From the NCBI GenBank assembly GCA_001873285.1, contig MNYV01000051.1:1-17548 (forward strand): a stretch of 17,548 bases of DNA, read 5' to 3'. Each line of letters opens with the position of its first letter. Position 1 is the stretch's first letter. Under the pieces are notes generated by a model. The model saw only the letters and a list, made by a program, of their open reading frames with translations. It had not been told where the DNA came from and made no database searches. The translations under genes and the position numbers were made by a program. Of this stretch, positions 2,122 through 17,279 are shown piece by piece. Origin of the DNA: Nitrospirae bacterium CG2_30_53_67. GTDB lineage: Bacteria > CG2-30-53-67.

Positions 2122-2521
2122 ATCCGCCCATCGCTTTCCGTAACCGTGTTACAGTTGATGGCTTTGCTACCATATCTTCCCATATTCTGACTACTTTCCA
2201 GCCTTCATCTTTGAGCGTGCGAGTTACAAGCTTGTCGCGCACTATATTGTGGTTTATCTTTTTCAGCCAATATTCACGGTTAGTTTGCGGCACCCGGCAT
2301 TTTCGTGGATGCCCATGCCAGAAACACCCATCGACGAATACAGCAACTTTCCTGCGTGGAAACGCAAAATCGGGTTTGCCAAAAATAGGGTAGCGCCTGC
2401 GCCAGCCTACGATTTTAGATTTGCGAAGAACGGCGACCAATATCTGTTCCGTTGATCTGTTTCCGACGGATTTGACCTGCGCCATTATCCACGAGCGTTT
2501 CTTCGCGCTGAACGTATCCAT
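2111..2521 (-). CDS. vsr: Very short patch repair endonuclease Vsr
   Basis: The protein has 136 residues, the usual Vsr length. It nicks DNA next to T:G mismatches left when 5-methylcytosine deaminates, starting repair back to C:G. Visible family features are KPDFAF with the metal-binding aspartate at position 51, the FVDGCFWHGHP block with D64, C66, H69 and H71, a following cysteine (C75), and the NREYWLKKI-N-RD segment. Where many Vsr proteins have a WEC motif supplying another zinc ligand, this one reads WED, so one structural zinc ligand may be lost or replaced by Asp. It is the first gene of the operon, with an ATG start and a weak ribosome site. The pairing with a C5 methyltransferase matches its known role of limiting mutation at methylated sites. 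Confidence 0.93.
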   Translation of the reverse strand: MDTFSAKKRSWIMAQVKSVGNRSTEQILVAVLRKSKIVGWRRRYPIFGKPDFAFPRRKVAVFVDGCFWHGHPRKCRVPQTNREYWLKKINHNIVRDKLVTRTLKDEGWKVVRIWEDMVAKPSTVTRLRKAMGGYEE

Positions 2522-2552
2522 GCAATCTTAAACCTTAAAAGCCATAAACATA

Positions 2553-2569
2553 CTGATAAACTTTATCAG
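2553..2569. promoter_or_regulatory. Perfect palindrome upstream of vsr, candidate operator
   Basis: CTGATAAA and TTTATCAG form perfect 8-bp arms around one central base, 32 bp upstream of the vsr start. On the minus strand the left arm falls where a -10 box would lie after a weak TTGCTT-like -35, so a bound repressor could block transcription of the restriction-modification operon. It shares the 9-mer TGATAAAGT with the palindrome in front of the Rrf2 gene. No controller gene is seen next to the operon. Rest of 2522-2757 shows only a GC hairpin at 2716-2728 with no T-run. Confidence 0.45.
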
Positions 2570-2757
2570 ACTCTTTCGGCCATTTCAAGCAATTTGTGGA
2601 AGCTTTCTGCGCGGGATTAACAATGTTATTAAGCGACAAAACGAGTGTAACAGGAATAGGCTTCTTTGTAAAAGAAATTTGACATAACCTAATACATGAT
2701 TCCCTGTTGTGATAGCCGCCGCAGGCGGTCCCGGCCCGGCAAGAATATTGAATAGGA

Positions 2758-3168
2758 TTACAGGATCTCCACCTTCATGGCCTTGGGCGGGCAAGTCCCC
2801 ACGCAGAGTTCACAGACGATGCACTTCTCAGGGTCGAAGCTCACAATCATGGTCTTTCTGTCGATGGAGATGGCTTCGCTTGGACAGACTGCCGTGCAGG
2901 CGCTGCACTGATAGCACCGGTCTTCAACCTTGTAAACCCGCTTCTTGAGGTCCAGTACCTCCACGCCCGAGTCTTTGAGAAACTTGATCCCTTTCTTGTA
3001 GTTCTTGCTATCCCCATCGATTTCAAGAACCATCTCCCCTTCCTCATCCGGGAGGATATTCGCCTTCAGGATGTTGAAGCTCAGGTCAAAATCCTTGACC
3101 AGCCTGTAAACAATCGGCTTGCTGATTAAATTATTGGAGAATCTTAACAGAACTTTCTTGTATGCCAT
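2758..3168 (-). CDS. NIL-domain 4Fe-4S ferredoxin for homocysteine synthesis
   Basis: A 136-residue cytoplasmic protein. Residues 1-75 form a NIL domain, the small fold also found at the end of MetN transporters. After it come two full ferredoxin motifs: C85-C88-C91-C95P and C116-C119-C122-C126P, predicting two 4Fe-4S clusters. In methanogens and sulfate reducers, NIL-ferredoxins work with COG1900/DUF39 proteins to convert aspartate semialdehyde plus sulfide-derived sulfur into homocysteine. The DUF39 gene lies two genes upstream in the same operon. The ATG at 3168 was chosen because AAGGAG lies 11 bases ahead of it. A longer reading to 3303 would run through a repeat element and adds residues foreign to the family. 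The role is inferred from family and context; electron supply to the sulfur-insertion step is the likely job. Confidence 0.9.
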   Translation of the reverse strand: MAYKKVLLRFSNNLISKPIVYRLVKDFDLSFNILKANILPDEEGEMVLEIDGDSKNYKKGIKFLKDSGVEVLDLKKRVYKVEDRCYQCSACTAVCPSEAISIDRKTMIVSFDPEKCIVCELCVGTCPPKAMKVEIL

Positions 3169-3198
3169 AGCTGATGAACTCCTTTCCAAAAATAAATT

Positions 3199-3355
3199 TT
3201 GATGGACTCGTAAAAAGTCCACAAGTGGGACGGCACAGTAAAAAGATCCGGATGCAAGGCGCGCGAATTCTGAGGAATGAGGCGTATTAGAGATACGCTG
3301 CAATGACGAAGAATGAAGCGCAACGCCGCAGACGGACTTTTTACGAAGCCGTCAA
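3199..3355. repeat. Hairpin-forming MITE-like repeat between cysK and NIL-ferredoxin
   Basis: The ends carry an inverted repeat with a perfect 13-bp core, TCGTAAAAAGTCC at 3208-3220 against its complement at 3334-3346, and weaker pairing out to TTGATGG/CCGTCAA. Inside is a second stem, GCGTAT (3282-3287) with ATACGC (3293-3298). ATTTT flanks both sides and could be a target duplication, but the flank is AT-rich so this is weak. No coding capacity. It abuts the cysK stop codon and ends about 31 bp before the NIL-ferredoxin start. It resembles non-autonomous repeats scattered in deltaproteobacterial genomes; that resemblance is from memory and unverified. Confidence 0.75.
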
Positions 3356-3357
3356 TT

Positions 3358-4284
3358 TTATTTTGTATACATATCCGTACTCAGGTAACGCTCCCCGGTA
3401 TCCGGAAAGATCACCACGACGGTCTTTCCCGGCCCGAGTTCCCTGGCGACTTCAAGCGCGGCAAAAAATGCCGCACCCGAGGAAATCCCGCAAAGGATCC
3501 CTTCCTGCCTGGCCAGATCCCGTGCCGCGGCTGCCGCATCCTCACCGCTCACCCGAACAATCTGATCAACGATCTCCATGTTCAGGACATCCGGAACAAA
3601 TCCGGCGCCGATCCCCTGGATCTTGTGCGGTCCGGCTTTACCTCCGGACAGGACCGGGGATTCCCTGGGCTCAACAGCCACGATCCTGATGCCCGGATTT
3701 TTGTTCTTCAGGACCTCGCCCACACCGGTGACCGTCCCACCGGTCCCCACTCCTGCAACAAAGGCATGGAAATCAAAACCGGCCTGCCTGATAATTTCCT
3801 GCGCCGTGGTCTTCCTATGCACCTCCGGATTGGCGGGGTTCTTGAACTGCTGGGGCATAAAATACCCCGGATTCTTTTCGACCATCTCTTCAGCCTTGCG
3901 TATGGCCCCTCTCATCCCTTCATCTCCCGGCGTCAGCACCACCTCGGCGCCGTAGGCCCGCAAGAGGGTTCTTCGCTCGAGGCTCATGGTCTCCGGCATG
4001 GTAAAGATGGCCCGATACCCCTTGACCGCAGCAACAAAAGCCAAGCCGATCCCCGTATTGCCGCTGGTCGGTTCGACGATAACCCCTCCGGGTCTAAGCT
4101 TTCCTTCCCGTTCCGCGGCCTCGATCATGCTCAGGCAGATCCTGTCCTTGACACTGCCGCCGGGATTGAAGGACTCGAGCTTGGCCCAGATGACGGCCTC
4201 TTCCTGCCCGGCCAGCCGTTGTATCCGGACCATGGGGGTATTCCCGATCAGGCCGGTAATCCATTCCACTCTATCCCTGTTCAT
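3358..4284 (-). CDS. cysK: Cysteine synthase (O-acetylserine sulfhydrylase)
   Basis: This 308-residue fold-type II PLP enzyme makes cysteine from O-acetylserine and sulfide. Visible motifs are LIGNTPMVR (12-20), NPGGSVKDR with the PLP lysine K46, TSGNTG (73-78) for substrate carboxylate binding, GTGGT (180-184) for the PLP phosphate, GISSGA (266-271) and the C-terminal [10 protein letters not shown]. The length fits CysK/CysM. The ATG at 4284 was preferred because GGAAG lies just upstream; an in-frame ATG at 4299 adds five residues but has no ribosome site at a normal distance. It sits between the DUF39 and NIL-ferredoxin genes, so the operon handles both cysteine and homocysteine formation. 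Use of another acceptor, such as O-phosphoserine or O-acetylhomoserine, cannot be excluded from sequence alone. Confidence 0.93.
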
Positions 4285-4324
4285 GTTGCTTCCATTCATC
4301 AGAACGGTTAAAGCTCTCTTTTCC

Positions 4325-5545
4325 CTATTTGTCCCAGGGTCTCTCCTTGAGCATTTTGAACGAGGCGCCGGAATCCGCCGAAGGGATCAGGTTCTGGGGT
4401 TCACCGAGCAGGAACTTTCCTTTGAGGATCCAGTCCTTGAGCGTCTCTGCGATCTTCACCGCCTTGGGGTAGCTCGAAAGAGAAGATGTCTTGACTTCCT
4501 TCCCCTGGATCATGATCTGACCGGACTTGAGTTCTTTGTAATTGACTTCTCCATAGCTCTTGGCGATGCCCTGCGGGTAATCTGCGCCGTAGTCCACAAT
4601 CTGGGTATAGATCTGTTCATCTGATACGCCGGTGGTCCGGGCCAGGTCCTCGTCCAGGATCGGTATGGGAATACCAAGTCCCAACGAGAGAGAGACCCCA
4701 TAACCCTGTAAGCTGACCCCTTTGACATATTCCGTGCTCATGCCCCGAAGGTCCCCATAGGTGGCGATGGTCCCGGCAGGCGCGCGCACGACCCCATTCT
4801 CCCCCCGTTTAACCGAAGGGTTGTGCTGAGTCCCCGGCGAGACCACGTATCCGATCCCCCCGCCCATGAATATCCGCGTCCCAATGCCGATGGTGCGGTA
4901 AAAAGGATCGTTCAGCAGAGGGGACAACTGGCCTGCGCTGCAGTAGTTGGCGTTTCCAAGATTGGGCCTGAGTCCTCCCATATAGGTGTAGATCATTCGG
5001 CTTCCGAGGTTCACGGCGCAGTTGTAATTCTGGTAGGCATTCCTTGGATTGAAAAGGTAACATTCATTCAGATCCTTGATGTTGATCAGGGAATATAAAT
5101 CCTTTCTGGGATAGCAGTCGGTCCCGTAGGCCAAGGCCTTGAGCTGGATGTCCTTCCCTGCGATCAGGTCCTCAATCACATGCCCTCCGCCATAGGGGAA
5201 CTGTCCCGGGTAGACCCGGTTCTCCGGGTCGTCTTCCGCAAGTTCGGTGGCGCCGATGTAGAGGTCTACGGCTGCAAGGCCGCCATAGGCATTCACCCCG
5301 TTGAGCCAGGCGCTCTTGACTTTAATCTTGGGTTTGGAATGCCCGAAGTTCAAGAATGCCCCCGAAGAGCACATGGGACCGAATGTGCCGGTGGTGACCA
5401 CATCCACCTTTCCGGCAGCGGCCACCGGGCCGTTCTTGTCCACGATGTCGATCATCTCCTCCGCGGTCACGACGACCGCCTCACCCTTTTTAATCCGGGC
5501 ATTGATCTCGGCATATGTCTTTTTGACTTTGGTTTCTTTTTCCAT
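4325..5545 (-). CDS. COG1900/DUF39 homocysteine biosynthesis protein
   Basis: A 406-residue protein recognisable as the DUF39/COG1900 family by its glycine-rich blocks: [12 protein letters not shown] (about 51-62), [12 protein letters not shown] (78-89), [16 protein letters not shown] (112-127), [11 protein letters not shown] (138-148), [18 protein letters not shown], and [14 protein letters not shown]. Cysteines at 59 and 144 sit in the most conserved-looking patches and are candidates to carry a persulfide. Genetic work in methanogens and Desulfovibrio ties this family, with a NIL-ferredoxin, to making homocysteine directly from aspartate semialdehyde without activated homoserine. Unlike methanogen versions with C-terminal CBS domains, this one ends after the core. 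The ATG at 5545 has GAGGAG seven bases upstream; a TTG at 5560 is less likely. It lies 11 bp after the Rrf2 gene. Confidence 0.9.
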
Positions 5546-5556
5546 CCTCTTTCTCC

Positions 5557-6018
5557 TCAAATGTTGTACATCAACGATTTTTCTTCCTTATTCAGTCCCA
5601 TTTGATCTGCCCGCCGGCAGAGGTCGGAAATGGCGATGGAATCAAAATACCGGCTGATCATCGTGCCGGCCTCGTCCCAAACCATCCGGGTCACGCACTG
5701 GTCCATATATTTACAGGCCGAGCCGTCTTTTTCCATGGTCGTGCAGGGAACCGGCTCAACCGGGCCTTCAAGGACACGGATGATATGGCCGACCGTAATC
5801 TTATCCGGGGAACGGGTGAGCAAATACCCCCCCTTGGGCCCCCGGGTGCTCTCGATGATCCCCGCCTTTTTCAAGGAATAGAAGATCTGCTCCAGGAACC
5901 GCCTTGAGATCCCCTGTCTCCTGGAGATCTCCCGGATCTGTACCGTCCTCCCTGGGGAATAATAGGCCATATCAAAAAGCGCCCGGACTCCATATTGACT
6001 TCGGTTTGAAAGTTTCAT
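5557..6018 (-). CDS. Rrf2-family transcriptional regulator (IscR/CymR-like)
   Basis: A 153-residue regulator with an N-terminal winged helix-turn-helix (1-70), including the family signatures QYGVRALFDMAYY, ISRRFLEQIFYSLKKAGI and RGPKGGYLL. It then has the C-terminal dimerisation helix. Three cysteines at 92, 102 and 108 follow the pattern C-x9-C-x5-C, close to the Fe-S cluster ligands of IscR (92, 98, 104), so it may hold a cluster and sense Fe-S or sulfur status. A CymR-like role, through a cysteine synthase partner, is also possible because cysK is in the operon. It is the first gene of the sulfur-assimilation operon, and its promoter contains a perfect palindrome, suggesting autoregulation. 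The regulated genes are inferred, not shown. Confidence 0.92.
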   Translation of the reverse strand: MKLSNRSQYGVRALFDMAYYSPGRTVQIREISRRQGISRRFLEQIFYSLKKAGIIESTRGPKGGYLLTRSPDKITVGHIIRVLEGPVEPVPCTTMEKDGSACKYMDQCVTRMVWDEAGTMISRYFDSIAISDLCRRADQMGLNKEEKSLMYNI

Positions 6019-6061
6019 AAATTCTCAACTACAATCTTTACCAAAAGAATGGGGTTCAGGA

Positions 6062-6090
6062 TAAATAATATACTTTATTGATAAAGTCAA
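6062..6090 (-). promoter_or_regulatory. Sigma-70 promoter of the Rrf2/sulfur operon
   Basis: On the minus strand TTGACT (6090-6085) is followed after 17 bp by TATTTA (6067-6062). The -35 matches 5 of 6 consensus bases and the -10 is weaker. Transcription would begin about 40 bp before the Rrf2 start codon. The palindrome at 6072-6087 covers the spacer and the edge of the -35. Confidence 0.6.
6072..6087. promoter_or_regulatory. Candidate Rrf2 operator palindrome
   Basis: ACTTTAT-TG-ATAAAGT is a perfect inverted repeat with 7-bp arms. It overlaps the spacer and last bases of the -35 of the operon promoter, the classic place for repression by an autoregulated Rrf2 protein. Binding is inferred from position and symmetry. 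Confidence 0.6.
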
Positions 6091-6257
6091 GTTTTTTTGC
6101 TTTTTCCTGAATAGGGGAACTTTTAAAAATCATTGGATGGAATAGGGCGCATGGAGAATGCATCTTGAAAATAGGCGTAAGAAAAGACAAAAAGGCAAAA
6201 AGGTTCCGGTTTTTTAAAGAAAATTCATTAAAAGCTCACATTTACATAAAAACAAGC

Positions 6258-6286
6258 TTGACAAAAATATGATATCTAATTATAGT
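6258..6286 (+). promoter_or_regulatory. Strong sigma-70 promoter of the rpsU operon
   Basis: TTGACA at 6258-6263 is a perfect -35. After exactly 17 bp comes TATAGT (6281-6286), five of six -10 consensus bases. The predicted start point near 6293 leaves a leader of about 47 nt before rpsU. This is the best promoter in the window and fits high expression of a ribosomal protein. Confidence 0.85.
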
Positions 6287-6339
6287 TAATATTTAGTTTT
6301 TTTAAACTTATTTTATATATGGAGGGAGGGGAAAAATGA

Positions 6340-6540
6340 ATGCTTGGCATCAAAATCAGAGAAGGCGAATCTTTTGAAGGGGCGTTGAGGCGGTTCAAGA
6401 AAATGTGCGAAAAATCAGGGCTCTTGTCTGAAATCCGCAAGCGCGAACATTATGAAAAGCCCTCCATAAGAAAAAAGAGAAAAACACTCGCGGCTCAGAA
6501 AAAGGCGCTGAAAATTCAAAAATATTCTGCAAGCAAATAG
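6340..6540 (+). CDS. rpsU: 30S ribosomal protein S21
   Basis: A 66-residue, very basic protein with the S21 core [26 protein letters not shown] followed by a lysine/arginine-rich tail. S21 joins the small ribosomal subunit late and helps the anti-Shine-Dalgarno region pair with mRNA during initiation. The ATG at 6340 gives the usual S21 N-terminus and follows the GGAGGGAGGGG ribosome site. Another ATG at 6336 is out of frame and opens only a 13-codon reading frame. rpsU begins the extended macromolecular-synthesis operon, as rpsU does ahead of dnaG and rpoD in many proteobacteria. yqeY follows after 15 bp. Confidence 0.93.
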
Positions 6541-6555
6541 CAACAAAGGAGCAGG

Positions 6556-6999
6556 ATGGGCCTTAAGGCGAAACTGGAAGCGGACATGAAGTCTGCAATG
6601 AAAACAGGCGACAAAGAGAGGCTTTCAGTCATCCGTATGATTCTCTCTGAAATCAAGAACCAGGAGATCAAAACGGGAGGGGCCTTACAGGAAAACGAGA
6701 TCACCGCCCTTCTTTCAAGAACCGTTAAGAGGCACAAGGAGTCCATTTCTCAATTCCAGATCGGGAAAAGGGAGGATCTGGTTCAAAAAGAGACCAAAGA
6801 ACTGGGTATGGTTCTTGAATATCTCCCCCCTCCATTATCCGTCGAGGAGCTAAGAGAGATCATCAAAAAGGTCATCGCTGAGACCGGCGCCGGCTCGATG
6901 AAAGAAATGGGCGCCGTCATGAAGAAAGTCATGGCCGAGGCCGCCGGAAGAGCCGATGGGAAACAGGTGCAGCAGTTGGTACAGAAAAGTTTATCGTGA
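6556..6999 (+). CDS. yqeY: YqeY / GatB-related domain protein
   Basis: A 147-residue all-helical protein of the YqeY family. This domain also ends GatB, the amidotransferase subunit that corrects misacylated Glu-tRNA(Gln) and Asp-tRNA(Asn). Recognisable parts are the start GLKAKLEADMKSAMKTGDKERLSVIRMI, the middle LEYLPPPLSVEELREII and the end MGAVMKKVMAEAAGRADGKQV. The free-standing protein is widespread next to rpsU; a tRNA-linked role is suspected but not settled. The start is ATG at 6556, with AAAGGAG six bases upstream. The stop codon is immediately followed by an intrinsic terminator, so rpsU-yqeY can form its own short transcript. Confidence 0.92.
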   Translation: MGLKAKLEADMKSAMKTGDKERLSVIRMILSEIKNQEIKTGGALQENEITALLSRTVKRHKESISQFQIGKREDLVQKETKELGMVLEYLPPPLSVEELREIIKKVIAETGAGSMKEMGAVMKKVMAEAAGRADGKQVQQLVQKSLS

Positions 7000-13161: not shown

Positions 13162-15324
13162 ATGGGTGACCCTCAAAGATCTCTCCTGCATAGTGAGAAA
13201 TATTTCAGTATGAGAGTTCATTACAGGTTTTGGAACCTCCTCGTTTTTTTGGGGAGCCTGCTTTTCGCTTCGCAGGCCTTCGCCTACATCGGCCCCGGCG
13301 CGGGGTTTGCGTTCTTCAGCTCTTTTCTGGTATTTGCCCTTTCCTTTTTAACCGCCATTGTAGCCATTATAATGTTCCCAGTCCGCCTCTTGCTGCGGGG
13401 AGTTCTAAAAAAACAAGGTGGACATACCCAAAAGATTCAGACAAAAAAGAAGGTGATTATCGCCGGGTTGGACGGCCTCTCTCCCATGCTGCTGCAAAAA
13501 TTTATGGACAAGGGCCTCCTTCCAAACTTCAAAAAACTCAAAGAAACGGGGACCTTCAGGACCCTCGGGACGACTACCCCGCCGATTTCTCCGGTCGCCT
13601 GGTCTTCGTTCAGCACCGGCTGCAATCCGGGAAGACACAATATCTTTGATTTTCTGACCCGTGACCCTAAGACCTATATGCCGGTGCTTGCCTTGGCGGA
13701 GGTGGAGAAGCCGGCCAAAACCTTATCCCTGGGTAAATACCGGATCCCTCTTTCAAAGCCGGGTATTTATTCCTATCGCAAGGGGAGTACCCTTTGGGGC
13801 GTTCTGGGAAAACACGGCATTCCAGGCATTGTCATCCGGGTTCCTGTGACCTTCCCTCCCGACACGTTCAGCGGAAGAATTCTTTCATCCATGGGGGTAC
13901 CGGACCTGCGGGGCACACAGGGAACCTTCTCTTCATATACATCCCTGGACGGTGCAGAGGCAAAGAGTACTGGAGGAGAGCGGTTTTATGTCCGTGTACT
14001 GAACAATAAGGTGAAAGGACTCCTTCGTGGTCCTGATAATACTCTCTTAAAGCACCCCGAACCCTTAACCGTACCGTTCACCATTCATCTGAACCCGGCA
14101 GGGGGCAAGGCGGCGCTTTCCCTGCAGGGAAAGGAGACCCCCCTGAAGGTCGGGGAATACAGCGAGTGGGCGCCTGTGACCTTCAAGATGGGCCTGGGGA
14201 TCAAGGTGCACGGCATTTGCCGGTTCCTTCTCAGAAGCGTGTCTCCGGATTTTCAGCTTTATGTTTCCCCGATCAATATCGACCCGGAGAGGCCGGCGCT
14301 TCCCATTTCCTATCCTTTGATCTATTCGCTTTACCTTTCGAAGGTCATCGGCAGATTTTCCACGCTTGGCCTGGCCGAGGATACCTGGGCATTGAACGAA
14401 GGCGCTCTGGATGATGCGGCTTTTCTCGATCAGTGTTACCTCAACCATGAAGATCGGGAGAAGATGCTTTTCCATGAACTCAAACGGTTCAAGAGAGGAC
14501 TTCTCTGCTGTGTTTTTGACACCACGGACAGGATCCAGCACATGTTCTGGCGGAACATGGATCCGGCTCATCCCATGCACAGAAACGGGAGCGAGGCGGA
14601 CTTCACGGTTTTTGAAGAACTTTATAGGCGGATGGATGATCTGGTCGGCCGTTTGATGGAGAAGATCGATCGGGATACGCTCTTCATGGTGATTTCCGAT
14701 CACGGATTCGGCTCATTCCGGCGGGGGATCAATCTCAATTCATGGCTTTACCGGAATGGACTTCTTGCCCTTATCGAGGGCGCCGACGGGAAAAGCGGCC
14801 AGCTCTTTGAAAAGGTGGACTGGGGTCAAACCCGGGCCTATGCCATCGGCCTCAGCGGGATCTTTATCAATCAGAAGGGAAGAGAGGCAAAAGGAATTGT
14901 GGAACCTGGACAAGAGACGGAAAAGGTAAAAAATGAAATCATTCAGAAGCTCGCAACCCTCAAAGATGAAAAGACGGATCAGACCGCGATTTCTCACGTC
15001 ATGAGAAGGGAAGACCTTTATTCCGGCCCCAGCATGGAGAATGCGCCGGATCTGATTGTGTCTTATACAGAAGGATACCGGGCCTCCTGGGATTCGGTCA
15101 TGGGCGGGGTTTCTGCGGATCTGATTGAGGACAATCTCAAGGCATGGAGCGGGGACCACAGCATGCACCCGGATCACATCCCGGGCGTCTTCCTCTGTAA
15201 TCGGAAAATGGTTTCCCACAAAATAAGACTCATGGATCTCACGCCTACGGTACTCAAGGTATTCGGGGTTCCCGTCCCCATTGAAATGGACGGCCGGCCT
15301 GCAGTTTTTGAAACGGAGAAGTGA
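13162..15324 (+). CDS. Membrane-anchored AlkP-superfamily phosphohydrolase (COG3379-like)
   Basis: A 720-residue protein with an AlkP/NPP-type two-metal active site. A signal peptide precedes SQAFA-YIGPGAG (cut near 41/42), then one hydrophobic span at about 49-78, so the catalytic domain probably lies outside the cytoplasmic membrane. Metal and nucleophile residues are in place: D104 (GLDGL), T152 (SSFSTG), D456 and H460 (TDRIQHMFW), D513 and H514 (SDHGFG) and D665/H666 (SGDHSMH). The likely chemistry is hydrolysis or transfer of a phospho-group; the substrate is unknown. Two starts are possible: ATG 13162 has GAAGG seven bases upstream and touches the rpoD stop, while ATG 13210 gives a more normal signal peptide but a poor ribosome site. 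The next gene is a paralogue, so this is a tandem pair. Confidence 0.85.
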   Translation: MGDPQRSLLHSEKYFSMRVHYRFWNLLVFLGSLLFASQAFAYIGPGAGFAFFSSFLVFALSFLTAIVAIIMFPVRLLLRGVLKKQGGHTQKIQTKKKVIIAGLDGLSPMLLQKFMDKGLLPNFKKLKETGTFRTLGTTTPPISPVAWSSFSTGCNPGRHNIFDFLTRDPKTYMPVLALAEVEKPAKTLSLGKYRIPLSKPGIYSYRKGSTLWGVLGKHGIPGIVIRVPVTFPPDTFSGRILSSMGVPDLRGTQGTFSSYTSLDGAEAKSTGGERFYVRVLNNKVKGLLRGPDNTLLKHPEPLTVPFTIHLNPAGGKAALSLQGKETPLKVGEYSEWAPVTFKMGLGIKVHGICRFLLRSVSPDFQLYVSPINIDPERPALPISYPLIYSLYLSKVIGRFSTLGLAEDTWALNEGALDDAAFLDQCYLNHEDREKMLFHELKRFKRGLLCCVFDTTDRIQHMFWRNMDPAHPMHRNGSEADFTVFEELYRRMDDLVGRLMEKIDRDTLFMVISDHGFGSFRRGINLNSWLYRNGLLALIEGADGKSGQLFEKVDWGQTRAYAIGLSGIFINQKGREAKGIVEPGQETEKVKNEIIQKLATLKDEKTDQTAISHVMRREDLYSGPSMENAPDLIVSYTEGYRASWDSVMGGVSADLIEDNLKAWSGDHSMHPDHIPGVFLCNRKMVSHKIRLMDLTPTVLKVFGVPVPIEMDGRPAVFETEK

Positions 15325-15326
15325 CT

Positions 15327-17279
15327 ATGTTCAATAAGAAAATGATTATCGGTGTTTTTTTATTATTCATCATGGTTGTTTCCGGGTGCGGACAACGGAA
15401 TGCAGAGCCGGGTAAAAAGGTTCTCATCCTGGGGTTCGACGGCATGGACTTAGAGAGAACCAAGGTCATGATGGATGCGGGAGAACTTCCCAACTTTGCA
15501 AAATTACGGGACATGGGCGGTTTTTCACCGTTAGCCACCACCATCCCGCCTCAGAGCCCGGTGGCCTGGGCCACGTTCAGTACAGGTTTGAACCCCGGTG
15601 AACATAATATCTTTGATTTTCTAAGACGGGATCCGGATACTTATTTCCCTGCCCTCTCCATGGCAGACGTCAAAGAACCGAAAAGAAAATTGGGCATCGG
15701 GCGTTGGAGCATTCCTCTCTCCTCACCGGAGATTAAGAACTTCCGTGAGGGGGTCCCGTTCTGGAAGGTCCTTTCCGATCATGGGATTCCGGTTTCGGTC
15801 CTCAGGGTCCCGGTCAATTTCCCTCCGGACGAATGCGGCCATCAGCTCTCGGGCATGGGGACGCCTGACATGCTCGGAACCATGGGAACCTTTTCGTTTT
15901 TCACCAACCGCCCTGTAGATAAGACAACCGAAACAGGCGGACGGATCCAGGAGGTGGAGATCAGGAACAACACCGTTGAGGCCGGCATTGAAGGACCCAA
16001 TAACCCTTATAAAAAAGGGGAAGTGAAACTCACCGTGCCTTTTAAGGTCTATATGGATCCGGCTTCCGAAACCATAGAACTCAGGCTCCAGGATCAGAGT
16101 CTCTTTCTCAAGAGAGGTGACTGGAGCAGATGGGTGAAGGTCCGTTTTGAATTTATGCCTATGATGAATGCCACGGGGATCGTCCGTTTTTATCTGAAAG
16201 AGATCGAACCTTATTTCGAACTCTACATGTCACCCATCAACATTGACCCTAAGAATCCGGCGCTTCCGGTTTCCTACCCATCGGGGTATTCCAAAGAGCT
16301 TGCCAAGGAAGGCGGACCTTTTTATACACAGGGTATCGCGGAGGATACCTGGGCCCTGAACCAGAAACGCCTGGATGATGAATCCTTTTTAAAGCAGAGC
16401 GAGATCGTATTCGAAGAGACCCTGAGAAACTTTCACCATGAATGGCGGGATTTTCACTCCGGTCTTCTTATCAGTTACTTTTCTTCGACCGATCCTCTGC
16501 AGCATATGTTCTACCGGTATACGGATCCGGAATGTCCAGGCTATGATGCGGAGAAGGCAAAGCGTTACGGCTCGGTAATCCCCGATACCTACAAAAAGAT
16601 GGACCGGGTCTTAGGCGAAGTGCTCTCCGCCATGGACAAGGATATGACGCTGATTGTGGTCTCAGACCATGGCTTTGCCCCCTTCAGAAGAGCCGTGCAT
16701 GTCAACCGCTGGCTGGTGGAAAAAGGGTACATGGTTTTAAAGGGCCCCTCTCTTCAGGAGAGCGGGGAATTTTTCGATAACGTGGATTGGGAGAAAACCC
16801 GTGCCTATGCCATTGGTTTGAACGGGATTTACTTAAACATGGCCGGCAGGGAAAAGAACGGAATCGTGCAGCAAGAAGAAGCGGATGCATTGAAGGCGGA
16901 ACTGATCCGTGGGCTTGAGGCCGTGGTTGATCCGGATAACGGCAAAAAGATGGTGAACAAGGTCTACAGGGGCGACCAGGCCTATTCCGGGCAATATGCA
17001 GGGAATGCGCCGGATCTGGTCGTGGGTTATACACGCGGGTATCGCGGCTCCTGGCAGACAGCGCTCGGAGCAGCCCCAAAGGTATTGGTGGAGGATAACC
17101 TGAAGGCCTGGAGCGGAGACCATTGTATCGATCCGGCGCTGGTCCCGGGTATTCTTCTCTCCAATAAGAAGATCATGAATAAAACGAATCCTTCTCTGAT
17201 GGATATCGCCCCGACCGTACTGAATGAGTTCCATATGGCTCCTTTGCCTGCCATGACGGGGAAGGATGTATTGGAGTAG
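15327..17279 (+). CDS. Lipoprotein AlkP-superfamily phosphohydrolase, paralogue of previous gene
   Basis: A 650-residue paralogue of the preceding protein, colinear along its whole length (shared SPVAW-FSTG-NPG-HNIFDFL, YVSPINIDP-like and AEDTWALN blocks). It differs at the N-terminus: a short hydrophobic stretch ends in VVSGC with lipobox Cys21, predicting a lipoprotein anchored on the outer face of a membrane instead of a membrane helix. Active-site residues are D38 (GFDGM), T86 (ATFSTG), D389 and H393 (TDPLQHMFY), D447 and H448 (SDHGFA), and D598/H599 (SGDHC). The ATG at 15327 has GGAGAAG seven bases ahead, inside the end of the previous gene. A GTG at 15321 is possible. Substrate unknown; duplication with different anchoring suggests divided location or substrate. 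Confidence 0.85.
   Translation: MFNKKMIIGVFLLFIMVVSGCGQRNAEPGKKVLILGFDGMDLERTKVMMDAGELPNFAKLRDMGGFSPLATTIPPQSPVAWATFSTGLNPGEHNIFDFLRRDPDTYFPALSMADVKEPKRKLGIGRWSIPLSSPEIKNFREGVPFWKVLSDHGIPVSVLRVPVNFPPDECGHQLSGMGTPDMLGTMGTFSFFTNRPVDKTTETGGRIQEVEIRNNTVEAGIEGPNNPYKKGEVKLTVPFKVYMDPASETIELRLQDQSLFLKRGDWSRWVKVRFEFMPMMNATGIVRFYLKEIEPYFELYMSPINIDPKNPALPVSYPSGYSKELAKEGGPFYTQGIAEDTWALNQKRLDDESFLKQSEIVFEETLRNFHHEWRDFHSGLLISYFSSTDPLQHMFYRYTDPECPGYDAEKAKRYGSVIPDTYKKMDRVLGEVLSAMDKDMTLIVVSDHGFAPFRRAVHVNRWLVEKGYMVLKGPSLQESGEFFDNVDWEKTRAYAIGLNGIYLNMAGREKNGIVQQEEADALKAELIRGLEAVVDPDNGKKMVNKVYRGDQAYSGQYAGNAPDLVVGYTRGYRGSWQTALGAAPKVLVEDNLKAWSGDHCIDPALVPGILLSNKKIMNKTNPSLMDIAPTVLNEFHMAPLPAMTGKDVLE

Follow-up and report, generated by a model that had tools for sequence, protein, structure and literature searches.

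Is the synthesis of cysteine and of homocysteine set by a single switch where genes for both lie together beside a transcriptional regulator? This question is raised by the 17,548-nucleotide (nt) contig MNYV01000051.1 of Nitrospirae bacterium CG2_30_53_67, the whole of which we call the window and which is contig C51 of a metagenome-assembled genome (MAG; 2.36 Mb, 95% complete), hereafter G000. Genes for an Rrf2-family regulator, DUF39, CysK and a NIL-ferredoxin run head to tail on its minus strand from 6018 to 2758, divergent from rpsU-yqeY-mutS2-dnaG-rpoD. A sequence-only reading of this DNA had described them as a complete sulfide-to-cysteine and homocysteine operon under one IscR/CymR-like switch, and all four genes do lie, on the minus strand, where it placed them. 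On balance, we lean slightly toward a model in which Rrf2 is an autorepressor that acts with CysK and is released by rising O-acetylserine, in the manner of CymR-CysK, so governing both sulfur amino acids. The enzyme identities of DUF39, CysK and NIL-ferredoxin are near certain, and the locus is laid out as follows.

5557-6018, minus strand: Rrf2-family regulator, 153 aa, winged helix with C92/C102/C108 and a flexible tail (PF02082 2.3e-38)
4325-5545, minus strand: DUF39 (HcyBio), L-aspartate semialdehyde sulfurtransferase subunit, 406 aa, single copy (PF01837 1.3e-153)
3358-4299, minus strand: CysK, cysteine synthase A (O-acetylserine sulfhydrylase), 313 aa (TIGR01139 456 bits, cut-off 351)
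3200-3354, minus strand: dispersed inverted-repeat element of 155 bp, resembling a miniature inverted-repeat transposable element (MITE), between cysK and NIL-ferredoxin and flanked by 5-bp AAAAT repeats
2758-3168, minus strand: NIL-domain 2x[4Fe-4S] ferredoxin, 136 aa, the homocysteine enzyme's electron-donor subunit (PF09383 1.6e-16 + Fer4)

The four genes likely form an operon. From Rrf2 to NIL-ferredoxin the gaps measure 11, 25 and 189 nt. No terminator was found on the minus strand by a consensus search over 2500-6600, and Rfam revealed no riboswitch within the operon, its sole match being a group II intron at the contig end. The true start of NIL-ferredoxin is the ATG at 3168, with AGGAG ahead of it; the start at 3303 given by the sequence-only reading (and by the open reading frame list) is wrong, as that extension runs into the 155-bp element. 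This element has 25 matches in G000, about 10 of them near full length at 85-100%, with inverted ends TGACGGCTTCGTAAAAAGTCC and GGACTTTTTACGAGTCCATCA, target duplications of about 5 bp and a predicted hairpin of -59.5 kcal/mol (z -5.3).

Its position suggests a different account, in which this is an ordinary sulfur-metabolism neighbourhood of separately expressed genes, Rrf2 controlling itself and perhaps cysK, and NIL-ferredoxin, beyond the MITE, being expressed from elsewhere. The structured repeat between cysK and NIL-ferredoxin favours that account, as do a relative that has only Rrf2-cysK and the many DUF39 loci elsewhere without Rrf2 (63/80) or CysK (66/80) nearby. However, the first three genes are only 11 and 25 nt apart, the first gap being filled by a ribosome site; relatives lack the full element here (locus L013 has a short stretch resembling one end), and their cysK-NIL gap is about 28-70 nt rather than 189; and no conserved promoter was found inside the cluster beyond the one ahead of Rrf2. 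We therefore regard separate expression as improbable.

The operon reading gains from the conservation of the gene set. Our family set consisted of G000 and five relatives, G001-G005, of which G001 belongs to the same genus. The order Rrf2-DUF39-CysK-NIL is identical in G003, G004 and G005, at 68-83% protein identity, and is therefore not due to chance. The other two relatives form a natural loss series. G002 has kept Rrf2, CysK and NIL, with DUF39 reduced to its last 64 residues and foreign sequence replacing the rest (L107, G002:C49, 6350-7250); in G001 just Rrf2 (83% identity) and CysK (89%) are present, and neither DUF39 nor NIL adjoins them (L141, G001:C50, 4563-6043). Because G001 keeps Rrf2-CysK after the loss of DUF39, the regulator appears to be tied to CysK and not to DUF39 alone, which fits a CysK-bound regulator.

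To look beyond the family, we surveyed 80 DUF39 loci from many phyla, counting a neighbour when it lay within 2.5 kb. Rrf2 was nearby in 17/80, CysK in 14/80, both in 8/80 and all four genes in 4/80. Since a genome has only about five Rrf2 genes, the nearness of Rrf2 to DUF39 exceeds chance expectation, although the loci are not independent. The Rrf2/CysK-linked loci come from Nitrospirota-like, Actinomycetota, Elusimicrobiota and Omnitrophota lineages with differing gene orders: Rrf2-CysK-DUF39 in Omnitrophota, DUF39-NIL-CysK-Rrf2 in one Elusimicrobiota genome and CysK-Rrf2-DUF39-NIL in one Actinomycetota genome. Rrf2-DUF39 occurs in Myxococcota/delta genomes. The Elusimicrobiota locus (L035, 8001-13423) continues with a MetY-like sulfhydrylase and a second CysK, so that both homocysteine routes may adjoin there.

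Upstream of Rrf2 three further features are shared across the family.

6062-6090, minus strand: sigma-70-like promoter, TTGACT (6090-6085), 17-nt spacer, TATTTA (6067-6062), kept in 6/6 family genomes
6072-6087, no strand assigned: operator-like perfect dyad ACTTTATCAATAAAGT, overlapping the -35 and the spacer, family consensus ACYYKRYNNRYMRRGT, in 6/6 family genomes
6033-6042, minus strand: second leader block GGTAAAGATT, lying after the promoter and ahead of the start codon, in 6/6 upstream alignments

In all six upstream regions the consensus TTGACT-N17-TATwwA aligns with the dyad inside it. Since the dyad lies between the -35 and -10 as expected for a repressor site, it is likely the operator, judging from its sequence and position. 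It scores 16-21 bits, the next site in the family loci examined being one of 14.2 inside dnaG; its half-sites covary just loosely. The leader block is retained even where the start codon is distant (L013) and is not a typical ribosome site. A similar dyad occupies the same place in 3/4 Myxococcota/delta loci (L017, L018, L020), which belong to a neighbouring branch of the Rrf2 tree (shuffle p <=0.01), a similarity due in part to the TTGAC held in common with the promoter; in Omnitrophota, Elusimicrobiota and Actinomycetota loci the operator was not found. In a genome-wide scan of G000, G001 and G003 the operon site was the only clearly recurring dyad, and an autoregulated operon rather than a regulon is the simplest reading. 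The proposal of one switch thus holds in that the first gene is preceded by a single promoter and dyad, both conserved; it is weakened by the structured repeat that splits NIL-ferredoxin from cysK, and, with no second operator site visible, it applies to one operon and not to a sulfur regulon.

What kind of regulator would act at this site? The sequence-only reading had called it IscR/CymR-like, and features of both are indeed seen. Against the NCBIfam equivalogs Rrf2 scores 113 bits for IscR (cut-off 207.55) and 93 bits for CymR (cut-off 195), below both. Its C92, C102 and C108, in the cluster-binding loop, are invariant in all 17 aligned DUF39-linked rows and probably, to judge from the alignment, hold an iron-sulfur (Fe-S) cluster. 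Their spacing is C-x9-C-x5-C, and that of E. coli IscR differs. Likeness to IscR of E. coli and Thermincola potens extends to the Rrf2 fold, the nearest solved fold being that of T. potens IscR. In contrast to IscR, the window Rrf2 is not isc-linked and its predicted target is sulfur amino acid synthesis; G000 has a separate iscR-iscS-iscU locus on contig C35. In the Rrf2 tree the DUF39-linked members require two label changes, with L016 on a long branch.

The second mark is the C-terminus, which reads -S-L-M-Y-N-I in the window (-MYxI type). Among 20 DUF39-linked Rrf2 proteins counted for the tail, including that of G001, whose DUF39 is lost, 18 from six lineages end in Ile, mostly as -Y-x-I after linkers variable in both length and sequence. 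In the 17-row alignment the entropy of the last column is 0.64 bits, as compared to 2.7-3.0 for columns 149-151. None of 11 other family Rrf2 paralogs outside the thrC-moaD cluster described below has the C-terminal Ile. In the AlphaFold2 model the last ~13 residues have pLDDT 36-60 and are predicted to be disordered. CysE, CdiA-CT and EGL-9 dock in CysK homologues by way of a flexible tail with Ile at its C-terminus (PMC12895370; PMC5562914; PMC4961446), and, going by sequence, docking of the Rrf2 tail in CysK is plausible.

The window CysK, whose matches to cysteine synthases in the PDB reach E values as low as 9e-128, contains SVKDR, TSGNTG, GTGGT and PQQF, of which TSGNTG and PQQF are peptide/substrate-site motifs. 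All five relatives encode full-length cysE away from the cluster, and the five CysE proteins have no C-terminal Ile, while CysK retains TSGNT and PQQF. B. subtilis is reported to lack the canonical CysE-CysK complex, and its CymR has an Ile motif and binds CysK (PMC12895370); the family sequences show the same pattern. Indeed, the likeness to CymR-CysK of Bacillus subtilis takes in the Rrf2 with its C-terminal Ile motif, the CysK peptide-binding motifs, the Ile-less CysE and the proposed control of cysteine genes. Unlike B. subtilis CymR, the window Rrf2 has three Fe-S-type cysteines, scores far below the CymR cut-off, shares an operon with cysK, would control DUF39-based homocysteine synthesis and has no wider regulon that we could see. 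An O-phosphoserine or tRNA route, in which CysK would work in the absence of serine acetyltransferase, was also considered and dropped, given the cysE of the five relatives.

Taken together, these features suggest how the locus might work. CysK would form cysteine from O-acetylserine and sulfide. DUF39 would load L-aspartate semialdehyde with sulfur from sulfide, probably carried as a cysteine persulfide, and NIL-ferredoxin would give the electrons that yield homocysteine, with COG2122, encoded elsewhere, also required. Rrf2 would bind the dyad between -35 and -10 and repress its own operon. With cysteine plentiful and O-acetylserine low, the -MYxI tail would sit in the CysK active site and a CysK-Rrf2 complex on the operator; a build-up of O-acetylserine would displace the tail and open the operon. 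The Fe-S cluster probably held by the three conserved cysteines would be a second input. More broadly, and only tentatively, we propose a distinct Rrf2 subfamily, associated in several anaerobic phyla with DUF39, cysK or both and acting as a two-input sensor (a three-cysteine Fe-S cluster plus a CysE-like -YxI tail docking in the co-transcribed CysK) that would set cysteine and homocysteine synthesis from sulfide jointly.

The same cysteines could instead mark Rrf2 as an IscR-type sensor of Fe-S or iron status only, adjusting the supply of cysteine and homocysteine, with the -MYxI tail a functionless relic of the lineage. The invariance of C92/C102/C108 (17/17 rows), the higher score of the IscR model (113 vs 93 bits) and the nearest solved fold, itself tail-bearing, are what one might expect in that case. 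A relic, however, would hardly keep its last residue so much better than the preceding linker across variable linker lengths and six lineages; moreover, the regulator of the separate iscR-iscS-iscU locus has no -MYxI tail, and in G001 Rrf2 stays beside cysK and not beside Fe-S genes. We consider a purely Fe-S-responsive regulator unlikely.

Several observations weigh against a CysK-assisted Rrf2 autorepressor. Five Rrf2 proteins heading thrC-moaD clusters carry the tail without an adjacent cysK, two DUF39-linked Rrf2 (L018, L020) are without the tail, and T. potens IscR (4cic) likewise ends MYYI. BsCymR binds no Fe-S cluster (PMC9338935); characterised CymR is without Fe-S ligands, and a two-input sensor is without direct precedent among CymR proteins. 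A degenerate dyad scan of G000, G001 and G003 did not rise above control (5 sites in G000 against 13 for the reversed pattern). Canonical cysE was not found in the 95% complete G000 assembly, probably an assembly gap because the gene is full length in all five relatives. The MITE hairpin may uncouple NIL-ferredoxin from cysK in G000. These are MAG data, in which some of what G001 and G002 seem to have lost may reflect faulty assembly, and we infer the regulation in its entirety: operator binding, CysK docking, the O-acetylserine signal and the Fe-S cluster.

DUF39 and NIL-ferredoxin are an established homocysteine pair (PMC5764234; PMC12068725), and genetics in Desulfovibrio showed that the trio of DUF39, NIL and COG2122 is needed (PMC5764234). 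The window DUF39 matches PF01837, whose present Pfam name is HcyBio, at 511.5 bits over the entire profile (1-349 of 349), with no other Pfam domain and no ferredoxin domain inside the protein; NIL-ferredoxin contains CxxCxxCxxxCP twice and is the best NIL-ferredoxin copy in the genome. COG2122 (UPF0280) is encoded on another contig (G000:C35:20477-21196), its family assignment being confirmed for the query. Because serine acetyltransferase and COG2122 both lie outside, the cluster is not the complete set that the sequence-only reading had described.

COG2122 is full length in G000, G003, G004 and G005, every family genome with intact DUF39, and is broken where DUF39 is lost, being present as fragments in G002 and missing ~100 internal residues in G001 (L150, G001:C129). 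Independently of the published genetics, their joint loss is evidence that the two proteins act together, and at the sequence level it supports a DUF39 homocysteine route in the family. A classical route was rejected, as G000-G005 encode no PF01053-type MetB/MetC/MetY/MetZ (best matches <=33.5 bits), the three weak matches in G000 reading as two generic aminotransferases and SelA. The assignment of DUF39 and NIL-ferredoxin to homocysteine made by the sequence-only reading is therefore supported, as is the absence of metB, metC and metY that it had proposed to check.

The window encodes the same two protein families as the known L-aspartate semialdehyde sulfurtransferases (DUF39/COG1900a with NIL-ferredoxin; MA1821-MA1822 of Methanosarcina; DvMF_1464/0262/0044 of Desulfovibrio), and resembles them further in a genomic COG2122 and the lack of a classical homocysteine sulfhydrylase family, and possibly in a conserved DUF39 cysteine pair. 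MA1821 has two catalytic cysteines, Cys54, which is essential, and Cys131; the candidate pair in the window, from alignments without MA1821, is Cys59 and Cys144 (58/143 without the initial Met), invariant in a 34-row alignment and at least 90% conserved in a 30-row one. In contrast to the known systems, the window genes are operonic with cysK and Rrf2, COG2122 is unlinked, and the bacterial DUF39 has only PF01837 where the M. acetivorans subunit has a C-terminal CBS domain (PMC12068725). The sulfur chemistry proposed for this organism is drawn by analogy with methanogens and Desulfovibrio. Although the AlphaFold2 model of DUF39 is of high quality (pLDDT 90.7, pTM 0.90), comparison with the PDB gave nothing below E 0.2 by Foldseek and nothing with Z above 2.2 by VIA-align, and we found no solved structures related by sequence. 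From the model, the fold seems to be without a solved representative, which is not proof of a new fold.

A further sulfur cluster lies on contig C97 (L108, 1986-6519): an Rrf2 with the tail MYHI, a threonine-synthase-like enzyme, a SAMP/MoaD-like carrier, two NIL proteins, a UbaA/MoeB-like E1, a JAMM protease and a DsrE-like protein. It is possible that this cluster is a thiocarboxylate route to homocysteine or another thiol. DUF39 might then not be the only homocysteine enzyme, or not one at all: homocysteine would be made by this cluster from a protein thiocarboxylate, and DUF39 would make another thiol. Such an arrangement is suggested by the thrC-like gene, which all six family genomes have alongside another threonine synthase paralog, even G001 and G002, where functional DUF39 is lacking; by the sulfur carrier, E1 and JAMM proteins identified in the cluster; and by the COG1900 family, which also contains coenzyme M synthase (PMC12068725). 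Yet an assignment of DUF39 as MMP16/coenzyme M synthase (COG1900d) was rejected on its TIGR03287 score of 109 bits against a cut-off of 364, the trio needed for homocysteine in Desulfovibrio is present in full (PMC5764234), and the C97 cluster is without a demonstrated function. We hold this account to be quite unlikely.

The rest of the window has other contents. Downstream of the operon are a cytosine methyltransferase (967-2121), a Vsr nicking endonuclease (2111-2521) and a GIY-YIG protein (309-1007), so that 1-2521 is a restriction-modification island beside a mobile element, the group II intron at the contig end (Rfam RF02005). Two tandem type I phosphodiesterase/nucleotide pyrophosphatase-like proteins (PF01663) follow rpoD at 13162-17279.

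Neither the enzymes nor the principle of Rrf2 repression assisted by CysK is new. Our literature search found nothing on regulation of the DUF39 route, nor on Rrf2 with DUF39 or homocysteine, and no instance of homocysteine synthesis by DUF39 combined with CysK and with an Rrf2 that has both a CysK-type tail and Fe-S cysteines. The DUF39 route to homocysteine is widespread among anaerobes; at this locus it is linked both with cysteine synthesis and with a regulator that bears the marks of IscR as well as CymR. The Rrf2 tail makes the docking model testable at a single residue, the last Ile. If true, the two-input Rrf2 sensor would be the first regulator proposed for the DUF39 pathway.

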